From Acidobacteriota bacterium (GTDB lineage: Bacteria; Acidobacteriota; Terriglobia; Acidiferrales; UBA7541): 42,640 nt of DNA. The translations under genes were made by a program, and so were the position numbers. Below the pieces are notes generated by a model that was given only the letters and a program-made list of their open reading frames with translations, did not search any database and was not told where the DNA came from. Shown piece by piece: positions 3,809-42,640 of the stretch. Position 1 is the stretch's first letter; every line of letters begins with the position of its first letter. The stretch spans positions 15,975-58,614 of the forward strand of contig PMHK01000150.1 of assembly GCA_003156635.1 (NCBI GenBank), in the 5' to 3' direction.

Positions 3809-3826
3809 GCTTAATGTGCTTAATGT
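3809..3826. repeat. tandem duplication of GCTTAATGT at the FHA gene stop
   Basis: Two exact 9-bp copies of GCTTAATGT lie head to tail and contain the TAA stop (3820-3822) of the FHA gene plus a second copy of the same triplet further on. It looks like a recent slip duplication at the gene end. I see no functional consequence beyond this. Confidence 0.6.
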
Positions 3827-4368
3827 GCGGCGACGGCGACGCGAATCTTGGTTTCGCCGATGCGGAACTCGGCGCATTCGTTCAGGCGGGCAGCCAGGAC
3901 TCGTTTTTCGCCGATGTAGGTGCCGTTGGTGGATCGCAGGTCACGCAGGAGAACCGAATCGTTTTTTACTTCTATGGCGCAATGCAGCCGGGAGACCTTG
4001 GGATCGTCGACTTCGATATCGGCTCCGCCGCGCAGTCGCCCAATGGTGACCAGCGGGACGGTCATATCGCATTCGACTCCGCGTGACATGCCCTGGATCA
4101 CCGAGATCTGGATCGATTTGTGGTCCGGCAAGTCGAGACCAGCCGCCCGCGATTCATCCGAGCGCTCCACGCGACTGGCGCCGAACTGGCGCTCGGCATC
4201 CAGAATGGGATTGAATTCGATGGTTGAAGAATTTTGATCTGGGGGCGTCAAATCCACCAACGAGCTCTGGGCGCACATCCAGCAGCGAACTTGAGCCATT
4301 CGCCGGCCGGCGTTGCGCGAATCATCCAGTTCGATTTGAGCGGCACAGTGGGGGCATCGGGCGCGCAT
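3820..4368 (-). CDS. zinc-ribbon plus FHA domain protein
   Basis: This 182-residue protein has two parts. Residues 5-32 hold two cysteine pairs (CPHC and CWMC) that probably form a small zinc ribbon. Residues about 95-180 form an FHA domain with the phosphothreonine-pocket motifs GRLRGGADI, SRLHC and STNGTYIG. FHA domains bind phosphothreonine peptides, so this is likely a cytoplasmic adaptor in Ser/Thr kinase signalling; no kinase gene is nearby. I see no signal peptide or membrane segment. The ATG at 4368 has only a distant AGGA-like sequence upstream. It stands alone, divergent from boxR and followed at some distance by the Tat flavoprotein gene. The domain call is firm; the partner is unknown. 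Confidence 0.82.
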   Translation of the reverse strand: MRARCPHCAAQIELDDSRNAGRRMAQVRCWMCAQSSLVDLTPPDQNSSTIEFNPILDAERQFGASRVERSDESRAAGLDLPDHKSIQISVIQGMSRGVECDMTVPLVTIGRLRGGADIEVDDPKVSRLHCAIEVKNDSVLLRDLRSTNGTYIGEKRVLAARLNECAEFRIGETKIRVAVAAH

Positions 4369-19170: not shown

Positions 19171-20268
19171 TTATTGCAGCGCGGCGCGCGCCGCTTCCAG
19201 CAGCGTCTTAAAATCGCCAGCAACGATGGCGGTCGTCATCGTTTGTAGATCGCGGGAAGTTTTTCCGGTGTCGTGGGGATGCTTCTCGAGGTCGTGCGCG
19301 TAGCCGTTAATGCGCGATTTCCATTCCTTGGGAGCCAACGGCGCGGCGGCCAATAAATATCGACGGGCCGACGTCGGGTCGACTGCCGGCAGTATTCGCG
19401 CGCGAAACGAAAAATCGCCGGCGCTGACCGCTTCGACGCTCACCTCGCCCGAATTTCCTGCGCCCGCCCCTGAAGTCAGTAGATCCTGGGTGTCTCCGCG
19501 CAAAAAGCGCAACACTCCCGGCGTGCGATTCTCCACCAGCACGCGCAACTGCTGATCCGATCCCTGGACGTGCAACGCGAGCTTGCTCTTTTTGCCCGGA
19601 ACCAGCGGCGGAATCGGCGGGTCGAAATGCAGGCTGACCAAAGTTGTGGCCGCTTCCCATTTTCCCGCCGAATTCTCGATCGTAATTCTCGCGGGCCCGG
19701 GAAGCGCCCGGGGGTTCGCAAGCACCACCACACATTCTGGCGAGGAGGCGAGCACGAAGGCCCGCTCGTCGTTAATCTTCACGCGGTTCGCGTCAGCTTG
19801 CTCCAGAAAATCCGCGCCGCAGATCGAGAATTGATCGACCAGCGAGACCACGGGAGCCACGGCGAGCGACTGTTTTCCGGTGAGCGATGCAGACGCATCC
19901 ACCAGCGCCGCGGAGCTGTTGCCGGAACCGCTGGCGATGATGACGGACATGTTGTCTGGCACGGTGAACGAAGCTCGTCCCGTCTTGTCCGTCTTCAACT
20001 TGAGCGTATCCCCGATCGATACGGTAATTCCCTCCGCCAGCCGGCCGTCGACGCCCAGCACCGCGAGCGTGGCCATTTTGCCGGCCACAAGTTTCGGGGG
20101 CAAAACAATGGAAACCGCCCAGGTGGTGAGCGCGTTCGATTGCGCGTCGACTCGGTTTTCAAGCGGCAGAACGGAGGCGATCAGAGCCGTCAGCAACCAC
20201 AAGACGATCGGCTTCCTTTTCCGAGAGCGGGTAGCGATCGTGGATGGGCGTGCGAGGATGCGCGCCAT
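19171..20268 (-). CDS. secreted protein of unknown function, coupled to the HD-GYP gene
   Basis: This 365-residue protein has a signal-anchor or signal peptide (hydrophobic stretch about residues 22-38, with ENRVDAQS after it). The remainder is beta-rich with Ala/Val/Thr-rich strands resembling Ig-like or carboxypeptidase-regulatory domains (about 45-125 and 210-310), then a helical C-terminus (KSRINGYAHDLEK... to the end). I do not recognise a family. Its ATG (20266-20268) overlaps the TAA of the GAF/HD-GYP gene in a TAATG, so the two are probably translationally coupled and work together. An envelope partner for a cytoplasmic signalling enzyme is one reading. Confidence 0.65.
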   Translation of the reverse strand: MARILARPSTIATRSRKRKPIVLWLLTALIASVLPLENRVDAQSNALTTWAVSIVLPPKLVAGKMATLAVLGVDGRLAEGITVSIGDTLKLKTDKTGRASFTVPDNMSVIIASGSGNSSAALVDASASLTGKQSLAVAPVVSLVDQFSICGADFLEQADANRVKINDERAFVLASSPECVVVLANPRALPGPARITIENSAGKWEAATTLVSLHFDPPIPPLVPGKKSKLALHVQGSDQQLRVLVENRTPGVLRFLRGDTQDLLTSGAGAGNSGEVSVEAVSAGDFSFRARILPAVDPTSARRYLLAAAPLAPKEWKSRINGYAHDLEKHPHDTGKTSRDLQTMTTAIVAGDFKTLLEAARAALQ

Positions 20269-22226
20269 TATTTGGGAGCGGGGGCGATCACCCGCTCATA
20301 CACTTTGGCATCGCGAAAAATATTGAAGAGCTCGCCGTCGATCTCGTCGGCGCGGACCGAAGATTCCAGAATGCTCAACGCCCGGTCCACCGGCACGGCT
20401 CGTTTGTACGGCCGGTCGGACGCGGTCAACGCGTCAAAAATATCGCAGATGGTCATCAGCTTGGTGGGCAACGGGATTTCGTCGCCGCGCAACTTGTACG
20501 GATATCCAGTGCCGTTTAATTTTTCGTGATGGGCGCGGGCGATATCTGGAATCCGGCTCAGCTCCTTGGTCCATGGAATTTGATTCAGGAAATTAAAGGT
20601 ATGGACCACGTGGGATTCGATCTGCAGCCGTTCCGCGGCATCGAGACTTCCCTTCGGAATCGAAAGCAGGCGTACTTCGTCAGGGTTAATGTAGGGCCGC
20701 TCAATCCCTTTGGTATCGATGTACGACTGGCGGGCGATGTCGCGCAGTTGACGAAACTTCCCTTCTTCGAGCAGCGTGGGCTCGTTGGTTTCGATAATAA
20801 ATTGAAAATAGTCTTCCAGGCGATTCATGCGCTGGTCGAAATCCTCGCTCAGCCGCGCAATTTCGGCCAGCGCGTCGCCGCGATCGCGCTCGATAAACAT
20901 CTGCAGCTTACGCCGCGCCATGCCCGCTTCCAGATCCTTGCGAATGTAATCGAAGCGTTGCTTCAGCAGGTCCATCTGGCCAGGATAAAGTTTCTTGGCC
21001 TTGACCAGCACGTCTTCGCGCACGCCGACTTTGCCGAAATCGTGCAGCAAAGCTGCGTACCGGATTTCCTTCATCTGCTCGGCGTCGAAGTGCGTGCCGC
21101 TGTATTTTCCGGTGTTGACGGAATCGAGTGTTTCGGCAAACGCTTCGGTATACGTGGCCACGCGCAGCGAATGGCCGGAGGTCGTGGGGTCGCGTTGTTC
21201 GATCGCGGTGACCGCCGCCTGGACGAAACCTTCGAATAGCGTTTCGATTTCCTGATACAGCTTGCGATTTTCGTAGGAGACCGCGGCCTGCGAGGCCAGC
21301 GAAAGCGCCAGTTGCACCGATCGCTCCGGAAAAGACTGGACCTGTTCCGCAACCGCGGCCTCATTTACCAGCCGCGCCGTCGCGTCGCGTTTGGAATTGA
21401 TGAGTTGCAATACGCCCAGCACTTCCCCTTTGGCGTTGCGCATCGGCAGGGTCATCAGCGATTTCGTGCGGTAACCGGAATCGCGGTCGTAGCGGTCGTT
21501 GAAATGAAACGGCAAATCCTTCGGCAGGTGGTGGGCATCCGCAAAATTCAAAACTTCGCCGTGCAGCGCGGTGTATCCGGCCATGGAGTCTTCCGCGAGC
21601 GGCAACGTAAATTCCTTGAACGGAAAATCCACGCTGTCGTTTTGGGTGAGCATGAAGCGCAGCCGGCGTTCGCGATTGTCTTCGTCCACCAAATACAAGG
21701 ACCCGGCATCGGCGCCAGTGATTTGCCGGGCCTTCTTCAGAATCAGAGTCAGCAGCGCATCGACGTCGCGCTCGGAAGAGAGCGCCACGCCGATCTCATT
21801 GAGCTGCTGCCGTTCGCGCTCGGCGATTTCCAGACCTTCGGCCGCCGCCCGGGACCGCTCCACGAGCTCAATATTTTCGAAGGCGATTGCGATCGTCTTT
21901 TCGAGTTCCCTCTTCGGTGCGTTCGCAGAGACGTAAGCAAAAAACGCTGCATCATCTGTGGACAATTTTGCAGATGAGGAGTCCCCCGCGATCACACCCA
22001 CGACACGCGTATGCGGGCCAGTGTTCCGAGTGTGCCGTACGAATTCCGCCGTATCCTTTTCAATATCGAGGAGAAAAACGCGAAGGGGATCTGTTGTATT
22101 CAATTCGACATTAATTTTGGAATCGGCCGGGGATATGGGCCGCAATTCGTACAAGTCCTTCAGAGGTTCGACCAGCGCCGCAGCCGCCGACCCCTGGCGA
22201 TACCAAATTTGTTTTTTTCTCGACAT
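20268..22226 (-). CDS. GAF plus HD-GYP phosphohydrolase with an enlarged catalytic domain
   Basis: This 652-residue cytoplasmic signalling protein has three parts. Residues 1-115 look like a diverged receiver-type domain. Residues about 150-320 form a GAF sensor domain (GADAGSLYLVDE). Residues about 330-640 form a HD-GYP domain. The metal-site motif HDFGKVGV is at 395-402 and HHEKLNGTGYP at 566-576, so catalytic residues are present. HD-GYP enzymes usually hydrolyse cyclic di-GMP. The two motifs are about 170 residues apart, much more than the usual 60-70, so a helical segment of roughly 110 residues is inserted (about 430-530). The TAA overlaps the next gene. A TATACT (-10-like) lies upstream, but I see no good -35. 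Confidence 0.85.
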   Translation of the reverse strand: MSRKKQIWYRQGSAAAALVEPLKDLYELRPISPADSKINVELNTTDPLRVFLLDIEKDTAEFVRHTRNTGPHTRVVGVIAGDSSSAKLSTDDAAFFAYVSANAPKRELEKTIAIAFENIELVERSRAAAEGLEIAERERQQLNEIGVALSSERDVDALLTLILKKARQITGADAGSLYLVDEDNRERRLRFMLTQNDSVDFPFKEFTLPLAEDSMAGYTALHGEVLNFADAHHLPKDLPFHFNDRYDRDSGYRTKSLMTLPMRNAKGEVLGVLQLINSKRDATARLVNEAAVAEQVQSFPERSVQLALSLASQAAVSYENRKLYQEIETLFEGFVQAAVTAIEQRDPTTSGHSLRVATYTEAFAETLDSVNTGKYSGTHFDAEQMKEIRYAALLHDFGKVGVREDVLVKAKKLYPGQMDLLKQRFDYIRKDLEAGMARRKLQMFIERDRGDALAEIARLSEDFDQRMNRLEDYFQFIIETNEPTLLEEGKFRQLRDIARQSYIDTKGIERPYINPDEVRLLSIPKGSLDAAERLQIESHVVHTFNFLNQIPWTKELSRIPDIARAHHEKLNGTGYPYKLRGDEIPLPTKLMTICDIFDALTASDRPYKRAVPVDRALSILESSVRADEIDGELFNIFRDAKVYERVIAPAPK

Positions 22227-22359: not shown

Positions 22360-22388
22360 TTGAATCACTACGAACCGTTTGTTAGCCT
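22360..22388 (+). promoter_or_regulatory. possible promoter of the CHASE2-cyclase gene
   Basis: TTGAAT (22360-22365) and TAGCCT (22383-22388) are separated by 17 bases. Transcription would begin about 75-80 bases before ATG 22472. The element TTGTTAGCCT recurs in part at 36950, upstream of the ABC operon. Confidence 0.4.
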
Positions 22389-22471
22389 TGCGCAGATTTG
22401 AATCGCCAATAAAAGGCCAAAACGCGCCCGCAGGTGAGTTCGCGCAAACCAAAGCGATTCCAATTCCCTTA

Positions 22472-24868
22472 ATGGCCGAAGCTAAAACAGGCACCGTAGC
22501 AAAACTTTTTCGCGAATGGTGGGGCCACCGCGGCTCACTGGGTATCAGCTTCGCCGTAATGGTGTTTGCGCTGTGCGTGTATTTTGCGACCTTCGTCGGC
22601 GAACGGCCGATGCCGACATTCGATTCCATCGACCGCCTGGAACTCAACACCCTCGACGCCCGATTTCAGTTTCGCGGCCGCGTCACTCCCGATCCGCGGA
22701 TCGTGATTGTGGATATCGACCAGCATTCCCAGGAGCAACTGGGCCGCTGGCCGTTCCCCCGCATCAATTTCGCCCACGCCCTCGACGCCCTTCGCGAGGA
22801 CGGCGCCAAGGTGGTAGCTTTCGACATCACCTTCAGCAAAGCGGATGAAACCGCCCGGCCGCTGCAGGAACTTTCCGCGGACCTCGCTTCCGGCAAAAAA
22901 GGAGCAGCCGGCCTAAATCCAACGGTCCAGCTGGCCATCGCCGAAAAGGAAAAGCAATACAACTATGATCAACAACTCGCCGATTCCATCACGCGTTTCG
23001 GCCACGTCGTTCTGGGAAATTATTTCCTATACACCAAAACCGATTTGGCCGGGGTCTCGAACGAGGCTCTGGACAAATACGCCGCCTTGATTTCCTTTTT
23101 TCCTTATACCCAGGTCCGGCCGTCGCGCCCGCCACCTACGCGTGAAGATCGTGACCAGGAGCGGCTGAAGGTAATTCAAATTTACGAGAATCAATACCTG
23201 GTGCCGCGCGGAGCAGAAGCGAACGCGGACGTCTTCGTCGGAGCGATCGCCGCGGAAAAAGGCGGTGCTGGATTTTTTAATGTCGCCGTCGACGCCGATA
23301 CCGTCGTTCGCCGCATTCTTCTTGCGATTCCTTACGGCCGCGATGAAGATCGCAAAAACTGGGATTTCTATCCGTCGCTCGACGTGCAGACCGTCCGCCA
23401 GTATCTCGACCTCAGCAGCGACCAACCGGTGCTTATTTATGGAGACGCCGGAATCGCCAGTCTGGAATTTGGTCCCAAGCTCGTGGTCCATCCCGACGAT
23501 TTGAGCCGCCTTCTGGTGAATTTCCACGGGCCATCACGGACCTATCCTTACGTTTCGTTCGCCGACGTGGCCCTGAATAAATTTCCGCGCGGAACGTTCG
23601 CGGACAAAATCGTGCTGATCGGCGCTTCGGCTACGGGTATCGGCGATTTGCGGGCCACTCCGTTTGGCGGCATCGATTTCCCCGGAGTTGAAATTCACGC
23701 CAACCTGATTGACAACATCTTGAACCAGCAATTCCTGGTGCGGCACGCGCCGCAGGTTTTGACCGACATTGGATTTATCGTGCTTTTTGGCCTGCCGCTG
23801 GGCATGTGGCTGGCCCTGGTGCAACCGCGCTGGATGGCGCTGGGTCTGCTGCTGCTCGTGCCCTTTGGCGCCGTCGTGTATTGGGCTTTCCTGCATGGCT
23901 GGTGGCTGAATTTTATCGTTCCAGCGCTGTTCACGCTGGTGCCCAACGTCAGCCTGGTTGCGCTGTATCGCGTTTTTTTCGAAGAGCAGGAAAAACGGAA
24001 AATTCGCGGCGCGTTTCAGCAGTACGTCAGCCCGGAAGTCATTCGGCGTTTGCTCAGCGATCCGGAACGAGTGAAGCCGCGCAAGACCGAAGTGACCGTG
24101 CTGTTCAGTGACATTCGTGGTTTCACTTCGATCTCAGAGAACCTGGACGCTCAAGAATTGGCCGCGCTGCTCAACGCCTACCTGACGGATATGACCAAAA
24201 TTATTTTTCGCCATCAAGGCACGCTCGATAAATATATCGGTGACGCGGTGATGGCCATCTGGGGCGCGCCGTTCGACGCGCCGGATCACGCGGCGAAATG
24301 CTGCGTCGCCGCGGTGGATATGCTCGTGCGGCTTTCGCAAATGCAGAAAGACTGGCGGGCTCGTGGATTTCCGGAACTCGATATCGGAATTGGAATCAAT
24401 ACGGGCGTCGCTTCGGTCGGAAACATGGGCTCCGCGCTGCGTTACGGCTACACCGCGATGGGCGATTCGGTGAATCTCGCGTCGCGTCTGGAAGGGCTGA
24501 ACAAAGAGTACGGAACGCGCATCGTGATCAGCGAATCCACGCGCCGGGAAATTAAGAGCGATGATCTGATTTTCCGCGAACTGGATCTGATTCGGGTGAA
24601 GGGCAAGCATCAGCCCGTAACGATCTACGAAGTCTTCAGTGCCGACGCCAGTGCAAATGGCGGCAAAGAACTTGCCGAACTATTTGGACGCGGGCGCGAG
24701 GCCTACAAGCGGCAGGACTGGCGCGCCGCGAAATCTCTATTTGAAGAAGTTCTCGTACGCTGGCCCAACGACGCTCCGGCGCAGATTTTTTCCGCGCGCT
24801 GCGAGGAATACCTGGCGGAGAAGCCAGCCGTGGATTGGGACGGCGTCTACGAGATGAAGCACAAGTAA
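22472..24868 (+). CDS. membrane adenylate cyclase with CHASE2 sensor and TPR-like tail
   Basis: This protein of about 798 residues has a single N-terminal membrane helix (about 22-43), then an extracytoplasmic CHASE2 sensor (about 50-370, starting LNTLDARFQFRG... RIVIVDIDQHS). Three transmembrane helices follow (about 400-480), then a class III nucleotide cyclase domain (about 530-690). Catalytic motifs include VLFSDIRGFTS, DKYIGDAVMAIWGAP and YTAMGDSVNLASRLE; the lysine and aspartate that select adenine are present, so cAMP is the likely product. The C-terminal ~60 residues look like a TPR (GREAYKRQDWRAAKSLFEEVL). The frame is open from TTG 22379, but I chose ATG 22472 because the sequence before it is not conserved-looking. 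It diverges from the HD-GYP gene. Confidence 0.88.
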   Translation: MAEAKTGTVAKLFREWWGHRGSLGISFAVMVFALCVYFATFVGERPMPTFDSIDRLELNTLDARFQFRGRVTPDPRIVIVDIDQHSQEQLGRWPFPRINFAHALDALREDGAKVVAFDITFSKADETARPLQELSADLASGKKGAAGLNPTVQLAIAEKEKQYNYDQQLADSITRFGHVVLGNYFLYTKTDLAGVSNEALDKYAALISFFPYTQVRPSRPPPTREDRDQERLKVIQIYENQYLVPRGAEANADVFVGAIAAEKGGAGFFNVAVDADTVVRRILLAIPYGRDEDRKNWDFYPSLDVQTVRQYLDLSSDQPVLIYGDAGIASLEFGPKLVVHPDDLSRLLVNFHGPSRTYPYVSFADVALNKFPRGTFADKIVLIGASATGIGDLRATPFGGIDFPGVEIHANLIDNILNQQFLVRHAPQVLTDIGFIVLFGLPLGMWLALVQPRWMALGLLLLVPFGAVVYWAFLHGWWLNFIVPALFTLVPNVSLVALYRVFFEEQEKRKIRGAFQQYVSPEVIRRLLSDPERVKPRKTEVTVLFSDIRGFTSISENLDAQELAALLNAYLTDMTKIIFRHQGTLDKYIGDAVMAIWGAPFDAPDHAAKCCVAAVDMLVRLSQMQKDWRARGFPELDIGIGINTGVASVGNMGSALRYGYTAMGDSVNLASRLEGLNKEYGTRIVISESTRREIKSDDLIFRELDLIRVKGKHQPVTIYEVFSADASANGGKELAELFGRGREAYKRQDWRAAKSLFEEVLVRWPNDAPAQIFSARCEEYLAEKPAVDWDGVYEMKHK

Positions 24869-32909: not shown

Positions 32910-34586
32910 TTACTTCAGAAGCGGTTGCGAATATCGAATGGGAATTCCGAAATTTGACCCGCCAAAACCTTTCAGGATGGCGACCGTCACCCCCACTACC
33001 TTGCCCTGATGATTAAAAAGCGGCCCGCCGGAACCACCCGAAGTCGTCTGCGCGTCGAACACGATTTTGTCCGGCAACACGTCGCCGACGTGTCCCTGCG
33101 TAATGATCGGCCGGATCAGATTGCGCCTGGCCAACTCCTTCAGCATGGCCGAAACGTCATTGCCGCTATCCTTCAAAATTTGTTGCGCCGTATCTTCGTC
33201 GGTCCGCGCCAGAATCGCGGCGAGTCCTGTCGCGTAACCCATCAGGATCACCGACTGGCCGCTCACGATGGATTGGTTCGTCGAATCCAGCGCCAGCACC
33301 GTGCGTTTCAAATCCTGCATGTCCACGCGGACCGAAGCTAGATCGGTTTCTTGCGAAATATCATTGATCTCCGCATGGAATGCGCGAGGGTCGCCCGGAA
33401 AATAAGCGCGGATGGTGGAAATCTGCGGCTGCAAGCCTTGCTTGGTGATGGCCGCAATCTCCTCGTTCTTCCACCAAGGTTCGGCCACGTGACGATTGGT
33501 GATGATGCGCCCATTCGGTCCCGCGACAAATCCGGTGCCGAAAACATCCATCTTCACTTCCGGCCCGGTGCCGTCGAGCGTCAGGATCGGGTTCCCTTGA
33601 CTGTCCTGCAACGGGTCGCCATCTTGATTCAACCCGCCGTAACGCAGCCGTTTTCCGGAGGGCTGATCGCTGAACGCCACCGCCACATGCAGCAAGCAGA
33701 CCGACTGCACGTCCGCGGGAATAATGGTCTGCGCCACGCTGCCTTGCGCTTCGAGTTTCTGCAAACGCAAATTGGTGTCCGCCAGCTGCTTTTGCAATCC
33801 GGCCGCATCATTCGGATTCGCGGTGGCCATCTGCGCTTTCAGGTCGGCGGCTTTCTGCTGCAGCTCGCCTTTCGCGGCAGCCGGAGCGGCCTCGGAGTCT
33901 TGCACCGTGCGCAATTTGCGGGCTTGTGCGATCAAATCCTGTTGGCGAATGAAGCCGCCCTCCAACTTCGTGAGCAAAGAGTTCGAGCGCGCCGTTTCCT
34001 TCTGCGCGCTGCGCGCAAAAAGAAAATAAATTCCAGCCATGACCAGCGCCAACGCCAGCACCGCGCCAAAGCCGGTCTTCAGCTTGCGGTCGAGCGACAC
34101 TGCGTTGCTGGCCATCGCCTCCGTAACCGCCAGCGCCTCGAACGCGGTGTGGGCGATCTGCTGGCCTTCGTCGGCGATGCGCATTTTGTCGCGCAGCTGA
34201 TTTTCAATGCGCTGCACCCGAAGGCGCGCGCGTACATGCGCCACAACCTCGCGAACGCTGAACGGCCGCGAGATCGCGTCGTTGGCGCCCAGATCGAGCG
34301 CGTCCGCCCGTTCGTCTGAACCGTTGCCAACCAACAAAAGCACGCGCATCGCCTCGGTGGTGGCCGTCCCCCGGATGATGGCGATTGTTTCTCGGGCGCT
34401 CGGATTTTCCAGACGCGAATCGAGTATCAGGATCGCTGCACCGTGCTGATGAATCGCGTCGAGGCCTTCACGTGTCGTGGCGAACCCGGTCACGTCATAG
34501 CCGGCCGTGCGCAACGCGTCCTGAATTTCCGCGCTGGTGGCCGGGTCGGGGTCGATGACAATTATTTTTTCGGGCGCGATGTCCAT
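32910..34586 (-). CDS. receiver domain-transmembrane-coiled coil-trypsin-like protease fusion
   Basis: This 558-residue protein combines domains that are normally separate. Residues 6-125 form a response-regulator receiver with D12/D14 and the phosphoacceptor D56 (LILDSRL), but the conserved lysine is replaced by arginine (SRPF, R107). One transmembrane helix follows (about 173-191), then a coiled coil (about 235-285). Residues about 290-558 form a trypsin/HtrA-like protease with a complete triad: H366 in TNRHVAEPW, D415 in ETDLASVR and S519 in TSGGSGGPLFN. The receiver would be cytoplasmic and the protease periplasmic, so phosphorylation could be relayed across the membrane. It has its own promoter (34626-34654). 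It is not a DegP: no PDZ domain is visible. Domain calls are firm; function is inferred. Confidence 0.85.
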   Translation of the reverse strand: MDIAPEKIIVIDPDPATSAEIQDALRTAGYDVTGFATTREGLDAIHQHGAAILILDSRLENPSARETIAIIRGTATTEAMRVLLLVGNGSDERADALDLGANDAISRPFSVREVVAHVRARLRVQRIENQLRDKMRIADEGQQIAHTAFEALAVTEAMASNAVSLDRKLKTGFGAVLALALVMAGIYFLFARSAQKETARSNSLLTKLEGGFIRQQDLIAQARKLRTVQDSEAAPAAAKGELQQKAADLKAQMATANPNDAAGLQKQLADTNLRLQKLEAQGSVAQTIIPADVQSVCLLHVAVAFSDQPSGKRLRYGGLNQDGDPLQDSQGNPILTLDGTGPEVKMDVFGTGFVAGPNGRIITNRHVAEPWWKNEEIAAITKQGLQPQISTIRAYFPGDPRAFHAEINDISQETDLASVRVDMQDLKRTVLALDSTNQSIVSGQSVILMGYATGLAAILARTDEDTAQQILKDSGNDVSAMLKELARRNLIRPIITQGHVGDVLPDKIVFDAQTTSGGSGGPLFNHQGKVVGVTVAILKGFGGSNFGIPIRYSQPLLK

Positions 34587-39371: not shown

Positions 39372-40130
39372 CTACTCGGCGTCCTGCAGTGTTTTGCAGT
39401 GCGCTTCCAGCGCCGTGCAGTACTGCCGCTGCGCGTCGAGTTCCGATTGCAATTTCTTGACGAGCAATTCCAGCCGGCGCATTTCGTTGCGCAGTTTCTG
39501 CAACTCTGCGGGCGGAGCCGACGGCGCACGTGGCGCCGGCGGCGCGACGGGCACGGGCTGTGAATTTAGGCGTGGCTGAAACGGCGGCGACGCAACTGGC
39601 GCAGCGCGATACACGGGCGCAGCGGCAACCGGCTGGTCGAGCGCGGGCGCGGCTGAAAACAACCCGCCAAGCACTCGCGACGCTTCCGCAGCATTTGCTT
39701 CCTCGTCACGCAAAGAGGTGCCGGGCAAGCTGGCAGGCCTCAGCAAGCTTTTTACCCGCGCGATCAGATCCTGCGGCTGGAACGGTTTGCGCACCAGCTC
39801 ATCGGCTTTCACCGCCATCGCTTTTTCCGCCACGCCGCGGTTCACTACACCTGACATCAGAATGACCGGAATCTTCCCGAGCTTTTCGTGCTGCTTGATG
39901 AACTCGCAGACCTCGTAACCGTCCTTGTCCGGCATGATCACGTCGGTAATCACCGCGTCGGGCGCATTATCCCCAAATTGCGCCAGCGCCGACGAAGCGT
40001 CTGCGCAAGTAATCACGTGAATGTTTTCCTTGCGGAAAGCGATCTTGATCACTTCGCGCATGGTCGCGCTGTCGTCGATGAAATACACGGTCGGAACCCG
40101 GGCCGCGGTAAGTGTTTGCGTTTCGGTCAT
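39372..40130 (-). CDS. response regulator with receiver domain and C-terminal coiled coil
   Basis: This 252-residue protein has a canonical receiver domain (about 12-130). It shows the acidic pair D19/D20, phosphoacceptor D63 in ITDVIMPDKDGYE, the serine in LMSG, and the lysine in RKPF (K115). A proline/alanine-rich linker follows, then a coiled coil (about 205-250, LRNEMRRLELLVKKLQSEL). There is no DNA-binding domain, so it acts by protein contact. I chose the ATG at 40130: AAGGA lies 7 bases upstream and the ATG overlaps the stop of the preceding gene (ATGA). An ATG at 40136 is also in frame. Confidence 0.86.
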   Translation of the reverse strand: MTETQTLTAARVPTVYFIDDSATMREVIKIAFRKENIHVITCADASSALAQFGDNAPDAVITDVIMPDKDGYEVCEFIKQHEKLGKIPVILMSGVVNRGVAEKAMAVKADELVRKPFQPQDLIARVKSLLRPASLPGTSLRDEEANAAEASRVLGGLFSAAPALDQPVAAAPVYRAAPVASPPFQPRLNSQPVPVAPPAPRAPSAPPAELQKLRNEMRRLELLVKKLQSELDAQRQYCTALEAHCKTLQDAE

Positions 40131-40987
40131 GACCATTCCTTTTCCGCATTTTCGTGCAGGGCGTCGTGCGGGCCGTCGTGTTGCTCCGCGTGCTGCCCGT
40201 CGTGCTGCCTCTGCTGATGATCGTCTTCCTGGCTCGCGTTCTGTTCTTCGTCCAGTTCGCGCATGGCGTCCAGCAACAGGTCGGTGGCCGAGCGCAGCAC
40301 CGTGCGCTGGGCCGCGGTGGTTCCGTAAACAAACTTGTAAACGCCCTTCTCCGCGCCCTGGCAGGTCTGAATAATTTCCTTCACCGCTTCATCGCCAAAC
40401 AGCGCGTCGCATTCCGCGTGCACAATCTCGCCGGCCTCGAAGAAGATGATCCCATCCGCGTCGGTAGCGTTGATGTGCAGCGCGCCGGTCTGCCGTGCTG
40501 GGCCCAGCATCTGAATCACGCCCGGCAGATCGAGATGCGAAAGGCTACCGCTCAAATCGGTGTCGGCGCTCAGCAACATTTGCGTCGGCTGAAATCCTTC
40601 CTGGCGGCTGATCAGAAAATTGCGTATATGCGCCGCAATATCCGAGGGCGGTTTGCGCCGGTCCACAAAGTCGTCGCAACCCGCGCGGTACGCTTCGAGC
40701 AGCGCCTGATCGCTTCCGCCGCCGCCAATCGCGATCAACGCAATATTCGTGGTTTTGGGATCGGCGCGCAGAATCGGCGCCATCTCCAGCGCGCCCATTT
40801 CGCGCAGATTCGTGGCGCACAATACCGCCGACGGAGCATTCCATTCGAGCATCGTCAGCGCGTAAGAAACTTGCGTGCACTGGACCACCTCAAAACCCAC
40901 GTGGCGCAGCGCGTCGCTGACCCGCTTCGAGAAATACACGTTGCTGTCGATCAGCAATATCCGCGGTGCCGAGGCTAACGCGTTCAT
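40127..40987 (-). CDS. degenerate receiver plus DUF4388 protein with histidine-rich tail
   Basis: This 286-residue protein has a receiver-like fold (about 8-125) in which the phosphoacceptor is missing: where an aspartate is expected (near residue 57) the sequence reads VLCATN. A DUF4388 (PatA-like) domain follows (about 140-245, DLSGSLSHLDLPGVIQMLG... FFEAGEIVHAE). The last 30 residues are rich in His/Asp/Gln with histidines at 257, 262, 266, 270, 274 and 278, spaced by four, encoded by 12-bp repeats. The tail may bind metal or form a helix with one His face. It overlaps both neighbours by 4 bases (ATGA) in the chemosensory operon. The exact role is unknown. Confidence 0.8.
   Translation of the reverse strand: MNALASAPRILLIDSNVYFSKRVSDALRHVGFEVVQCTQVSYALTMLEWNAPSAVLCATNLREMGALEMAPILRADPKTTNIALIAIGGGGSDQALLEAYRAGCDDFVDRRKPPSDIAAHIRNFLISRQEGFQPTQMLLSADTDLSGSLSHLDLPGVIQMLGPARQTGALHINATDADGIIFFEAGEIVHAECDALFGDEAVKEIIQTCQGAEKGVYKFVYGTTAAQRTVLRSATDLLLDAMRELDEEQNASQEDDHQQRQHDGQHAEQHDGPHDALHENAEKEWS
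40154..40213. repeat. five imperfect 12-bp tandem repeats encoding the histidine tail
   Basis: Reading the plus strand from 40154, five units begin GTG, GTG, GTG, GTG and GTG at 12-base steps (40154, 40166, 40178, 40190, 40202), with variants of GTGCxGxCCGTC. Because 12 is a multiple of three, copy-number change would keep the frame and add or remove four residues containing one histidine. It is inside the coding region at 40127-40987. Confidence 0.75.
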
Positions 40988-41469
40988 GCGCGCACCTCTG
41001 CGTTAGCCGCACCGTGCGCCGATTCCGCGCGCGGCGACACCAGCGCCTCAAGGTTCAGCACCTGAATCTTCTCGCCGTCCACATCGAGTGAACCCATAAA
41101 ATGTGCCGCTTGTCCGTCCTGCGCCGGAATCAATTCCGAATTGGACAGCTCGCATTCGCCATTCACCGGAATCGCGCTGGCCTCGGTTTCATTTCCGAAT
41201 TCGCGCCGCGCCACCAGATAAAATCGATGCACCGACGATTCCCGACCGCACAGCACGCGCGAAACGTCATACACCGGCACGATGCGGCCCCGGCGAACGA
41301 TGACTCCCGCGATCAGCGCCGTGGTGTTCGGGAAATGATGCAGCCGCACCGGCGGCGCCAGTTCCTCCACCAGCTCCGAGCGCAGCGCAAACCGCCGATT
41401 CCCCACGTGCAACAACACGTAGGAATGTTTGCTCGCCTGCTCCGCTCCGGTCATTGCCGCGCCCGTCAT
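40984..41469 (-). CDS. cheW: CheW-like chemosensory coupling protein, second copy
   Basis: This 161-residue CheW-domain protein (SYVLLHVGNRRFALRSELVEELAPP, then LIAGVIVRRGRIVPVYDVSRVL) probably couples a receptor array to a CheA kinase. I chose ATG 41469, which overlaps the previous cheW stop (ATGA); a longer open frame to 41616 is not coding. Its stop overlaps the next gene by 4 bases. CheA and receptors are outside the window. Confidence 0.82.
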   Translation of the reverse strand: MTGAAMTGAEQASKHSYVLLHVGNRRFALRSELVEELAPPVRLHHFPNTTALIAGVIVRRGRIVPVYDVSRVLCGRESSVHRFYLVARREFGNETEASAIPVNGECELSNSELIPAQDGQAAHFMGSLDVDGEKIQVLNLEALVSPRAESAHGAANAEVRA

Positions 41470-41999
41470 CCTTGCACCGCGCTTTCGAGCTGCTGGGTCG
41501 CGATGCTTACCGCAGCGGCTTGATCCAGCCGCGCAAATTCTTCCACGGTCAGAAATCCACCAGGATTGATCACTGGAATCACGCGATCCTCGAGATACGT
41601 CAGTCCCCGATACCATTTCCGCTCTTGGCCCTGAAATCCACGCGGCAGCGGATGAATTGTGGCCACGTCCGCCATGCGCTCGATCGAATCCACCAGTACC
41701 GCCGCGCGAATCTGCCGCAGAATCAGCACCAGCGTGGGTCGTGTCACGCGCAGACCAAAATGCGCGCAGCCGCTGACCACGTAGTACGTTCGCCGCGCGC
41801 GTTCCACCAGATGCCGCACCTTCGGAACTTCAGCTTGCTCGATTTCAATCGCCGTCCCGCCCAGGCTGTCCGTACTGCGAATTTCCTGCACCGCGTCCGC
41901 CGCAATCGCGAAGGTTTGATTCGCGATGCAAAATAAAATGACGGCTTCGCTGGCCCGCGCGCGCCGCGGCTTAGCCGCATCGGCCGTGGCGAACTTCAC
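41466..41999 (-). CDS. cheW: CheW-like chemosensory coupling protein, first copy
   Basis: This 177-residue CheW-domain protein has FCIANQTFAIAADAVQEIRS at the start and YLEDRVIPVINPGGFL near the middle of the second subdomain. The start is GTG at 41999, overlapping the cheB stop in GTGA. It is more diverged than the second copy and carries an extra segment (PLPRGFQGQERKW). Two CheWs in tandem suggest they differ in partner or in the array. It belongs to the five-gene operon running minus. Confidence 0.8.
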   Translation of the reverse strand: MKFATADAAKPRRARASEAVILFCIANQTFAIAADAVQEIRSTDSLGGTAIEIEQAEVPKVRHLVERARRTYYVVSGCAHFGLRVTRPTLVLILRQIRAAVLVDSIERMADVATIHPLPRGFQGQERKWYRGLTYLEDRVIPVINPGGFLTVEEFARLDQAAAVSIATQQLESAVQG

Positions 42000-42640
42000 C
42001 GTGCACCTGCCGGCACCAGCCGCGAAATCTGCACCACTCGCTTTTCGATCGCCGCGCTGATTTCGTCCAAAGGAAGAATTTCATCCACCGCTCCGGTCTT
42101 GATGGCCTCGGCAGGCATCCCGAAAATCATGGAAGTCGCTTCGTCCTGCGCGATCACGTAGCCGCCCGCGGCCTTGGCGAATTTCACGCCTTTCGCCGCG
42201 TCGTTCCCCATGCCGGTCAAAACCACCGCGACCGTTGCCCCGCGTGTGTGCGCCGCGACTGATTCCACCGCCACATCCGCGCAAGGACGATACCCGTCGA
42301 TTCGGTCGCCGGGGTCCAAGTTGAGTCTTCCGGTAAATGACAAGCGCACATGGTGCGAGCCGGGGCAAAGATAAATCGTGCCGGGCTGCATCGTTTCGTT
42401 CTGCTCCGCTTCTTTCACCGGCAGTTGCGATACTTCCGCCAGTTGCGTGGTAAACGGCTGGGTGAAAGCGGCAGGCATATGCACGACGAGCAATACGGCC
42501 GCGGGCAAATTCTTGGGCAAACCCGAAACCACGCGCATCACTGCCGCGGGACCGCCGGTCGACGCGGCGATGACGACCACGGGAATTCGATTTCCATTTT
42601 GATCGGTGGATGACGCTCGCCGCGATGAAACCGGAGCAGC
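41996..42640 (-). CDS. cheB: chemotaxis protein-glutamate methylesterase CheB, C-terminal part (runs off the window)
   Basis: The visible 214 residues hold the CheB methylesterase domain. The catalytic serine is in IAASTGGP, the histidine in LLVVHMPAAF, and the aspartate in VLTGMGNDAAKG. Upstream the frame stays open to the window edge and reads a Ser/Arg/Pro-rich linker (VSSRRASSTDQNGNRIP), typical of the hinge between a receiver domain and the esterase domain. So the receiver is probably encoded beyond the edge. CheB removes methyl groups from receptors for adaptation. The start codon is not in the window; the GTG at 42580 is internal. Confidence 0.9.
   Translation of the reverse strand, partial: AAPVSSRRASSTDQNGNRIPVVVIAASTGGPAAVMRVVSGLPKNLPAAVLLVVHMPAAFTQPFTTQLAEVSQLPVKEAEQNETMQPGTIYLCPGSHHVRLSFTGRLNLDPGDRIDGYRPCADVAVESVAAHTRGATVAVVLTGMGNDAAKGVKFAKAAGGYVIAQDEATSMIFGMPAEAIKTGAVDEILPLDEISAAIEKRVVQISRLVPAGAR

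Follow-up and report, generated by a model that had tools for sequence, protein, structure and literature searches.

What might a response-regulator receiver be doing on the cytoplasmic end of a protease that should be found across the membrane? This question is raised by a single gene within a 42,640-nucleotide stretch of DNA from a soil-dwelling acidobacterium, here called the window, i.e., the whole of the stretch that was analysed. A preliminary description read this gene as encoding an uncommon order of domains, that is, a receiver with an intact phosphoacceptor aspartate (D56), one transmembrane helix, a coiled coil, and lastly a trypsin-like protease, such that phosphorylation inside of the cell could switch proteolysis within the periplasm. 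Domain order and a phosphorylation switch nevertheless are separate claims, and they can be considered in turn. The gene and its main parts are these:

32910 to 34586, minus strand: whole gene, 558 amino acids plus stop, ATG start (open reading frame and full-length homologues)
34215 to 34571, minus strand: pseudo-receiver domain, residues 6-124, with degenerate active site (PF00072, E 3e-11; AlphaFold2 pLDDT 84-93 over residues 11-130)
34077 to 34214, minus strand: helical linker, residues 125-170 (AlphaFold2 model; 146-170 of low confidence)
34011 to 34073, minus strand: transmembrane helix, residues 172-192 (hydropathy; helix 170-211 in the AlphaFold2 model)
33717 to 34010, minus strand: helical or coiled-coil region, residues 193-290, presumably periplasmic (model and heptads)
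32913 to 33554, minus strand: trypsin-like protease, residues 345-558, of HtrA/DegQ-type fold and without PDZ (Pfam and structure search)

Within the 558-amino-acid protein, Pfam recognises Response_reg (PF00072) over residues 8-118 (E 3e-11) and Trypsin_2 over residues 350-533 (E 1.4e-17), with an overlapping Trypsin model as the sole additional match above cut-off. The order of domains is receiver, transmembrane helix, coiled coil, and then trypsin-like protease. An AlphaFold2 model (mean pLDDT 78, pTM 0.56) similarly begins with a receiver of (beta-alpha)5 fold, which is followed by a long helix, the transmembrane helix, a further three helices, and finally a trypsin fold, with alpha5 of the receiver continuing unbroken as a helix over residues 111-155; the orientation of domains relative to one another is unreliable in this model, with residues 146-170 and 191-212 falling below pLDDT 50. 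The transmembrane segment, at approximately residues 172-192, has a Kyte-Doolittle value of 2.38 in the window protein and of 2.0 or more in each of the 55 homologues, versus a median of 1.53 for the runner-up segment, and its Wimley-White octanol sum is favourable in 55 of 55. There is a single such segment, as previously proposed. As the receiver fold lacks a signal peptide and precedes this one transmembrane helix, the receiver should be cytoplasmic and the protease periplasmic.

The preliminary description called for a search for this order of domains among homologues, and the order indeed is conserved, being kept in 55 distinct proteins from four taxonomic families of the same class. Full-length homologues of the same order, at 35-74% identity, are found in many genomes, and within the same taxonomic family 59 of the 89 genomes have one at E <= 1e-40; the fusion therefore is neither a chance joining nor a frameshift artefact, the latter being ruled out by the keeping of order across all 55 distinct proteins. 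The fusion of receiver, transmembrane helix, coiled coil, and protease is genuine. A profile search finds the receiver-type fusion in further families of the class as well, and the form occurs also in family f11, for which there are genomes of good quality (G627 and G631). Homologue records with names are of Acidobacteria, Candidatus Acidiferrales, and Terriglobia metagenome-assembled genomes. There usually is one copy per genome, as is the case for the window's own genome, with two copies found in G456. A few split cases (L026/L114, L028/L115, G463, G464, and G467) have the appearance of broken frames, or of contigs that end within draft genomes. L114 (G029:C25:22491-22796), for example, is a receiver-only fragment of approximately 165 amino acids near a fusion gene which is itself frame-broken in that genome.

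The output end of the protein is the more easily described. Its relevant features are the following:

33489 to 33491, minus strand: His366 of the catalytic triad (55 of 55 members)
33342 to 33344, minus strand: Asp415 of the triad (55 of 55)
33030 to 33032, minus strand: Ser519 of the triad (53 of 53 complete members)
33126 to 33224, minus strand: helical insertion, residues 455-487, between two protease strands (predicted helices 455-459, 464-474, and 478-487)

The triad, H366/D415/S519, thus is complete, as first read, and is also invariant across the family. Comparison of the protease model using Foldseek and VIA-align gives, for DegQ (3pv5), a Z of 23.6 and an rmsd of 1.8 over 178 residues, and for DegP and DegS a Z of approximately 22-23. 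A PDZ domain is not found by Pfam in the 558-amino-acid protein at E values of up to 1, and the protein terminates at residue 558, directly past the final protease helix of the AlphaFold2 model. On the basis of its modelled structure, then, the protease is HtrA-like in its fold but, as it has no PDZ domain, is outside of the HtrA family as that family usually is defined. Similarity to the HtrA proteases DegS, DegQ, and DegP is in terms of fold and of the H-D-S order of the triad. DegS possesses a single transmembrane anchor, and in this too the two are alike. Differences from the HtrA family, in addition to the missing PDZ domain, are the extra insertion over residues 455-487, the large cytoplasmic domain, and the coiled-coil stalk. 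The insertion is common, in alignment, to both the receiver-type proteins and the FHA-type relatives considered below, and it might, by comparison with DegP, correspond to the HtrA activation loop LD.

HtrA proteases are known as trimers. In the helix preceding the protease, there is an unbroken heptad pattern (264/268/271/275/278/282/285/289), and this helix carries a motif of interest:

33750 to 33767, minus strand: RLQKLE, an instance of the trimerisation motif R-h-x-x-h-E, residues 274-279 (46 of 55 members, same column)

The motif's occurrence at the same column in 46 of 55 members can be compared with its occurrence anywhere in 3.8% of shuffled sequence. R-h-x-x-h-E usually is indicative of parallel three-stranded coiled coils, though it is seen with some dimers too (PMC3653964). 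The stalk, and with it the protein, probably is trimeric.

At the other end of the protein is the receiver, and it is here that the possibility of a phosphorylation switch has to be judged. By the term 'pseudo-receiver' I mean, following its published definition, a domain that is recognised as a receiver but which is without at least one of the five active-site residues (PMC12632262). By its sequence, the receiver domain of the 558-amino-acid protein falls within this definition. That is, the (beta-alpha)5 fold of a functional receiver is present while the full set of five active-site residues (two acidic residues, D, T/S, and K) is not. The codons in question are these:

34548 to 34550, minus strand: codon 13, Pro, where receivers have a metal-binding Asp (DD2, a Mg2+-binding acid; acidic in 0 of 55 members)
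34419 to 34421, minus strand: codon 56, Asp, at the nominal phosphoacceptor position (kept in 20 of 55)
34329 to 34331, minus strand: codon 86, Val, where receivers have Thr or Ser (T/S in 27 of 55)
34266 to 34268, minus strand: codon 107, Arg in place of the receiver Lys (Lys kept in 0 of 55; 12 residue types seen)

Only D12 and D56 are left of the five in the window protein, with P13, V86, and R107 representing losses. The residues which had been named originally, i.e., D56 and R107 along with those of the protease triad, all are found as stated. What was said of the receiver stands, with D56 present and Lys replaced by Arg at 107, but the losses at positions 13 (Asp to Pro) and 86 (Thr/Ser to Val) had been overlooked.

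The window protein is not exceptional in this regard. No more than three of the five residues are kept by any of the 55 aligned members, and 34 of them have S, E, G, N, T, or A at position 56 instead of Asp. The aromatic residue which in receivers is found at K-3, and which via Y-T coupling links phosphorylation to the dimer face, is absent from all 55. By comparison, all five residues are found in 28 of the 29 well-scoring receivers compared from the window's own genome, a control that comes from a profile search and which is biased towards well-scoring domains; in a looser control, consisting of 22-23 receivers from neighbouring and related loci, the DD2 Asp is found in 16 of 22 and the Lys in 17 of 22. 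The 55 members represent one clade, and the Lys and the second acid may each have been lost just once, in an ancestor, rather than 55 times independently. The variety of replacements at the lost sites and at D56 argues, at the level of sequence, for later free variation. Across the whole family, going by the alignment, the receiver has lost its phosphorylation chemistry.

Loss of chemistry is not equivalent to decay. Over 72 pairs, the receiver has a median dN/dS of 0.126, compared with 0.103 in the protease, i.e., the receiver is not decaying but instead is under purifying selection. Conservation furthermore is concentrated within one portion of the domain:

34215 to 34319, minus strand: alpha4-beta5-alpha5 face, residues 90-124, the best-conserved part of the receiver (entropy and interface residues)

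Entropy over alpha4-beta5-alpha5 is 1.06-1.16 bits, versus 1.20 bits for the protease and 2.4 bits for alpha1/alpha2. In the kpRstA dimer, this face is held together by salt bridges, Asp97-Arg111 and Glu92-Arg113, and by hydrophobic residues, Leu91 and Ala110 (PMC4117788). These interface positions map here, when counted from the conserved Lys position, to 103-117, 98-119, 97, and 116. Within the family, the corresponding residues are D/E103 (55/55) with R117 (53/55), D/E98 (53/55) with R119 (55/55), L97 (55/55), and A116 (52/55), and R123 is found in 54 of 55 members. The window's own copy deviates at two residues of the face, R117 being His and D102 being Asn. Dimer-face residues of the OmpR/PhoB type, as read from these aligned positions, thus are retained family-wide. 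Conserved alpha4-beta5-alpha5 residues support the fold in ordinary receivers too.

A perspective on what the N-terminal domain may be contributing is supplied by relatives of the protease from outside of the clade (L030-L032, L052, and L054-L082). These are found across the phylum and, as the extent of spread beyond Acidobacteriota, in one Planctomycetota genome (L052). They possess an FHA-like domain at the receiver's position, followed by a transmembrane helix and coiled coil before a homologous trypsin-like domain. Both types therefore combine a homologous transmembrane-coiled coil-protease portion with an N-terminal phospho-signalling fold, that fold being FHA in the relatives and receiver here. 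The Pfam family Yop-YscD_cpl matches 15 of 32 relatives, and a model of L065, which is a strongly diverged FHA-type protein, matches FHA structures as well as YscD and PscD. The likeness to YscD/PscD of type III secretion is limited to the FHA-type relatives and to their likewise being bitopic, with an FHA fold on the end within the cytoplasm, YscD and PscD instead being parts of a secretion ring rather than proteases. In canonical FHA domains, an Arg following a Gly binds phosphothreonine. That Arg is absent from every aligned FHA-type member, whereas a canonical FHA domain elsewhere in the window (L189) does possess it.

In a tree of the protease portion only, the root of which is not fixed, the receiver-type proteins are separated from the FHA-type proteins by a branch supported at 100/100. 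As the FHA type is more widely spread, the direction of change is inferred to be from FHA to receiver, i.e., probably an exchange of one 'dead' phospho-domain for another. Five relatives (L079, L149, L150, L060, and L061) are without a recognisable N-terminal domain. Three of these, L079, L149, and L150 from family f11, are 320-335 amino acids in length and have only a transmembrane helix before the protease; G631 has one short copy consisting of transmembrane helix and protease along with one receiver-type copy.

The reading favoured here, with moderate confidence, is of an HtrA-like protease, bitopic and probably trimeric, whose cytoplasmic pseudo-receiver serves in docking or oligomerisation independently of phosphorylation. 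The protein, that is, would be an inner-membrane serine protease made up of a cytoplasmic pseudo-receiver, a single membrane helix, a coiled-coil stalk, and a PDZ-less periplasmic protease of HtrA fold. The pseudo-receiver would act without phosphorylation of its own Asp, docking or oligomerising through its conserved alpha4-beta5-alpha5 face, and doing so either with itself, thereby clustering the protease, or instead with a cytoplasmic partner, e.g., a true receiver. The organism has approximately 70 other receivers. Such pairing would fix the protease's location, its assembly, or its partner. The pseudo-receiver presumably also would have replaced an FHA-fold domain that itself was without its phosphopeptide-binding Arg.

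This docking role is suggested by analogy, with PleD REC2 and with ChxR/HP1043 serving as working models. ChxR and HP1043 dimerise via the alpha4-beta5-alpha5 face without phosphorylation (PMC3960148). They are, like the domain here, OmpR/PhoB-like receivers without phosphorylation chemistry, and the residues of their kind of dimer face are found throughout the present family; their output, by contrast, is winged-helix DNA binding in the cytoplasm rather than a protease beyond the membrane. PleD is the best combined PDB profile match, with two domains at 55.4 and 52.2 bits, though single receiver domains of the OmpR/PhoB type score above it (CpxR, 76.7 bits). REC2 of PleD likewise is a degenerate receiver, displaying D-to-N along with S-R-P where the Lys motif would be, but it is flanked, within one soluble protein, by a true receiver and a GGDEF cyclase. 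Counting against the docking and trimer reading, in addition to the single-clade origin of the 55 sequences, the two deviant face residues of the window's copy, the part that face residues play in the fold of ordinary receivers, and the occurrence of the trimer motif in some dimers, is a mismatch of symmetry, i.e., a twofold receiver pair versus a threefold stalk.

A more specific version of events would have the dead receiver pairing with a phosphorylated true receiver, with a two-component signal in this way reaching the periplasmic protease, and evolution having exchanged FHA for receiver. This is a possibility, but an unlikely one. Alternatively, the pseudo-receiver might sense a ligand, its beta5-alpha5 surface binding a small molecule such as c-di-GMP and thereby controlling the protease across the membrane. 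The precedent is that of the kinase ShkA, in whose pseudo-receiver c-di-GMP is bound at the beta5-alpha5 surface (PMC7010744), and arginines at 119, 123, and 117 (55, 54, and 53 of 55 members, respectively) are found on the same element here; the likeness is a general one, of an Arg-rich, conserved beta5-alpha5 region. OmpR/PhoB-type dimer salt bridges explain the same arginines, however, and the FHA-type relatives, with another fold at this position, would require a different input, such that ligand sensing, as an argument by analogy, seems decidedly improbable.

From a different perspective, the receiver may be simply a leftover, serving as a passive anchor for which any folded cytoplasmic domain would suffice, with regulation solely periplasmic. 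Loss of the active site, the exchange with FHA domains, and the existence of relatives without an N-terminal domain all would be in keeping with this. A receiver dN/dS near to that of the protease, and conservation on one face rather than of the core alone, are not what a leftover should display, and the idea accordingly is given little credence. HtrA-type proteases can be activated by misfolded proteins, and information thus might flow from the outside in, i.e., the protease end would sense or hold periplasmic substrates while the pseudo-receiver, as output, would bind or release a cytoplasmic regulator via its conserved interaction face. The protein, however, is without a PDZ domain or any other sensor domain for the periplasm, nor was a conserved neighbour that could be such a regulator found among the gene neighbourhoods compared, which leaves this too with a slim chance. 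Most improbable is the classical phospho-switch of the preliminary description, in which a histidine kinase phosphorylates D56, the transmembrane helix relays, and the protease is turned on or off: D56 is present here and in 20 of 55 members, and Response_reg scores above the Pfam cut-off, but the second acid, the Thr/Ser, and the Lys (three of the five residues) are missing here, the Lys, DD2, and the Y-T aromatic are found in 0 of 55, the Asp is replaced in 34 of 55, and, in agreement with what had been noted at the outset, no histidine kinase is among the window neighbours examined.

The family is one of conserved pseudo-receivers outside of transcription, with an enzymatic output that should be across a membrane. 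How pseudo-receivers work has been described as an open question (PMC12632262), and the family provides a record of what stayed, one interaction face, versus what went, the phosphorylation site. The FHA sister group serves in addition as a natural control, as neither branch seems to need its N-terminal domain's own phospho-chemistry. Should a partner be found, then proteolysis beyond the inner membrane would here be controlled from inside the cell. The description of the domain order as uncommon is supported. No prior description of a receiver or FHA domain fused to a trypsin or HtrA protease was found in the open-licence literature, which is weak evidence of absence. Each of the modules is known, while their combination, along with a parallel loss of phospho-chemistry by two different domains at one position, appears to be undescribed.

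The neighbourhood of the gene varies. Within the same genus, the fusion gene is followed by trpC-trpF-trpB-trpA; in other genera, beside it, are lexA and a gene for a zinc-dependent phospholipase C or instead unrelated genes. A link to tryptophan synthesis was considered and dropped, as neighbours differ in those other genera. In genus g5, the fusion gene is flanked by lexA and the gene for the zinc-dependent phospholipase C, and the three share a strand (L108, L109, L112, L087, L088, L089, and L092). A role in anti-phage defence also was considered and rejected, with PADLOC matching generic trypsin-like parts only (best E 4e-10) and no whole system protein.

Other signalling genes are found in the window. 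On the minus strand at 40130-40987 is a receiver-DUF4388 protein whose receiver is degenerate (CATN in the Asp region and DRRKPP in the Lys region), and which belongs to a chemosensory cluster at 39375-42640 (long-tailed receiver, CheW, and a CheB-like end). A small protein consisting of a zinc ribbon and an FHA domain, encoded at 3823-4368 on the minus strand, displays the canonical phosphothreonine signature (GR, SRLH, STNGT) and possibly is a reader of Ser/Thr kinase signals. Lastly, a gene for a GAF-HD-GYP protein with approximately 150 unassigned N-terminal residues (20268-22226, minus strand) is divergent from one for a CHASE2-nucleotide cyclase (22379-24868, plus strand), that is, these are second-messenger enzymes encoded back to back.
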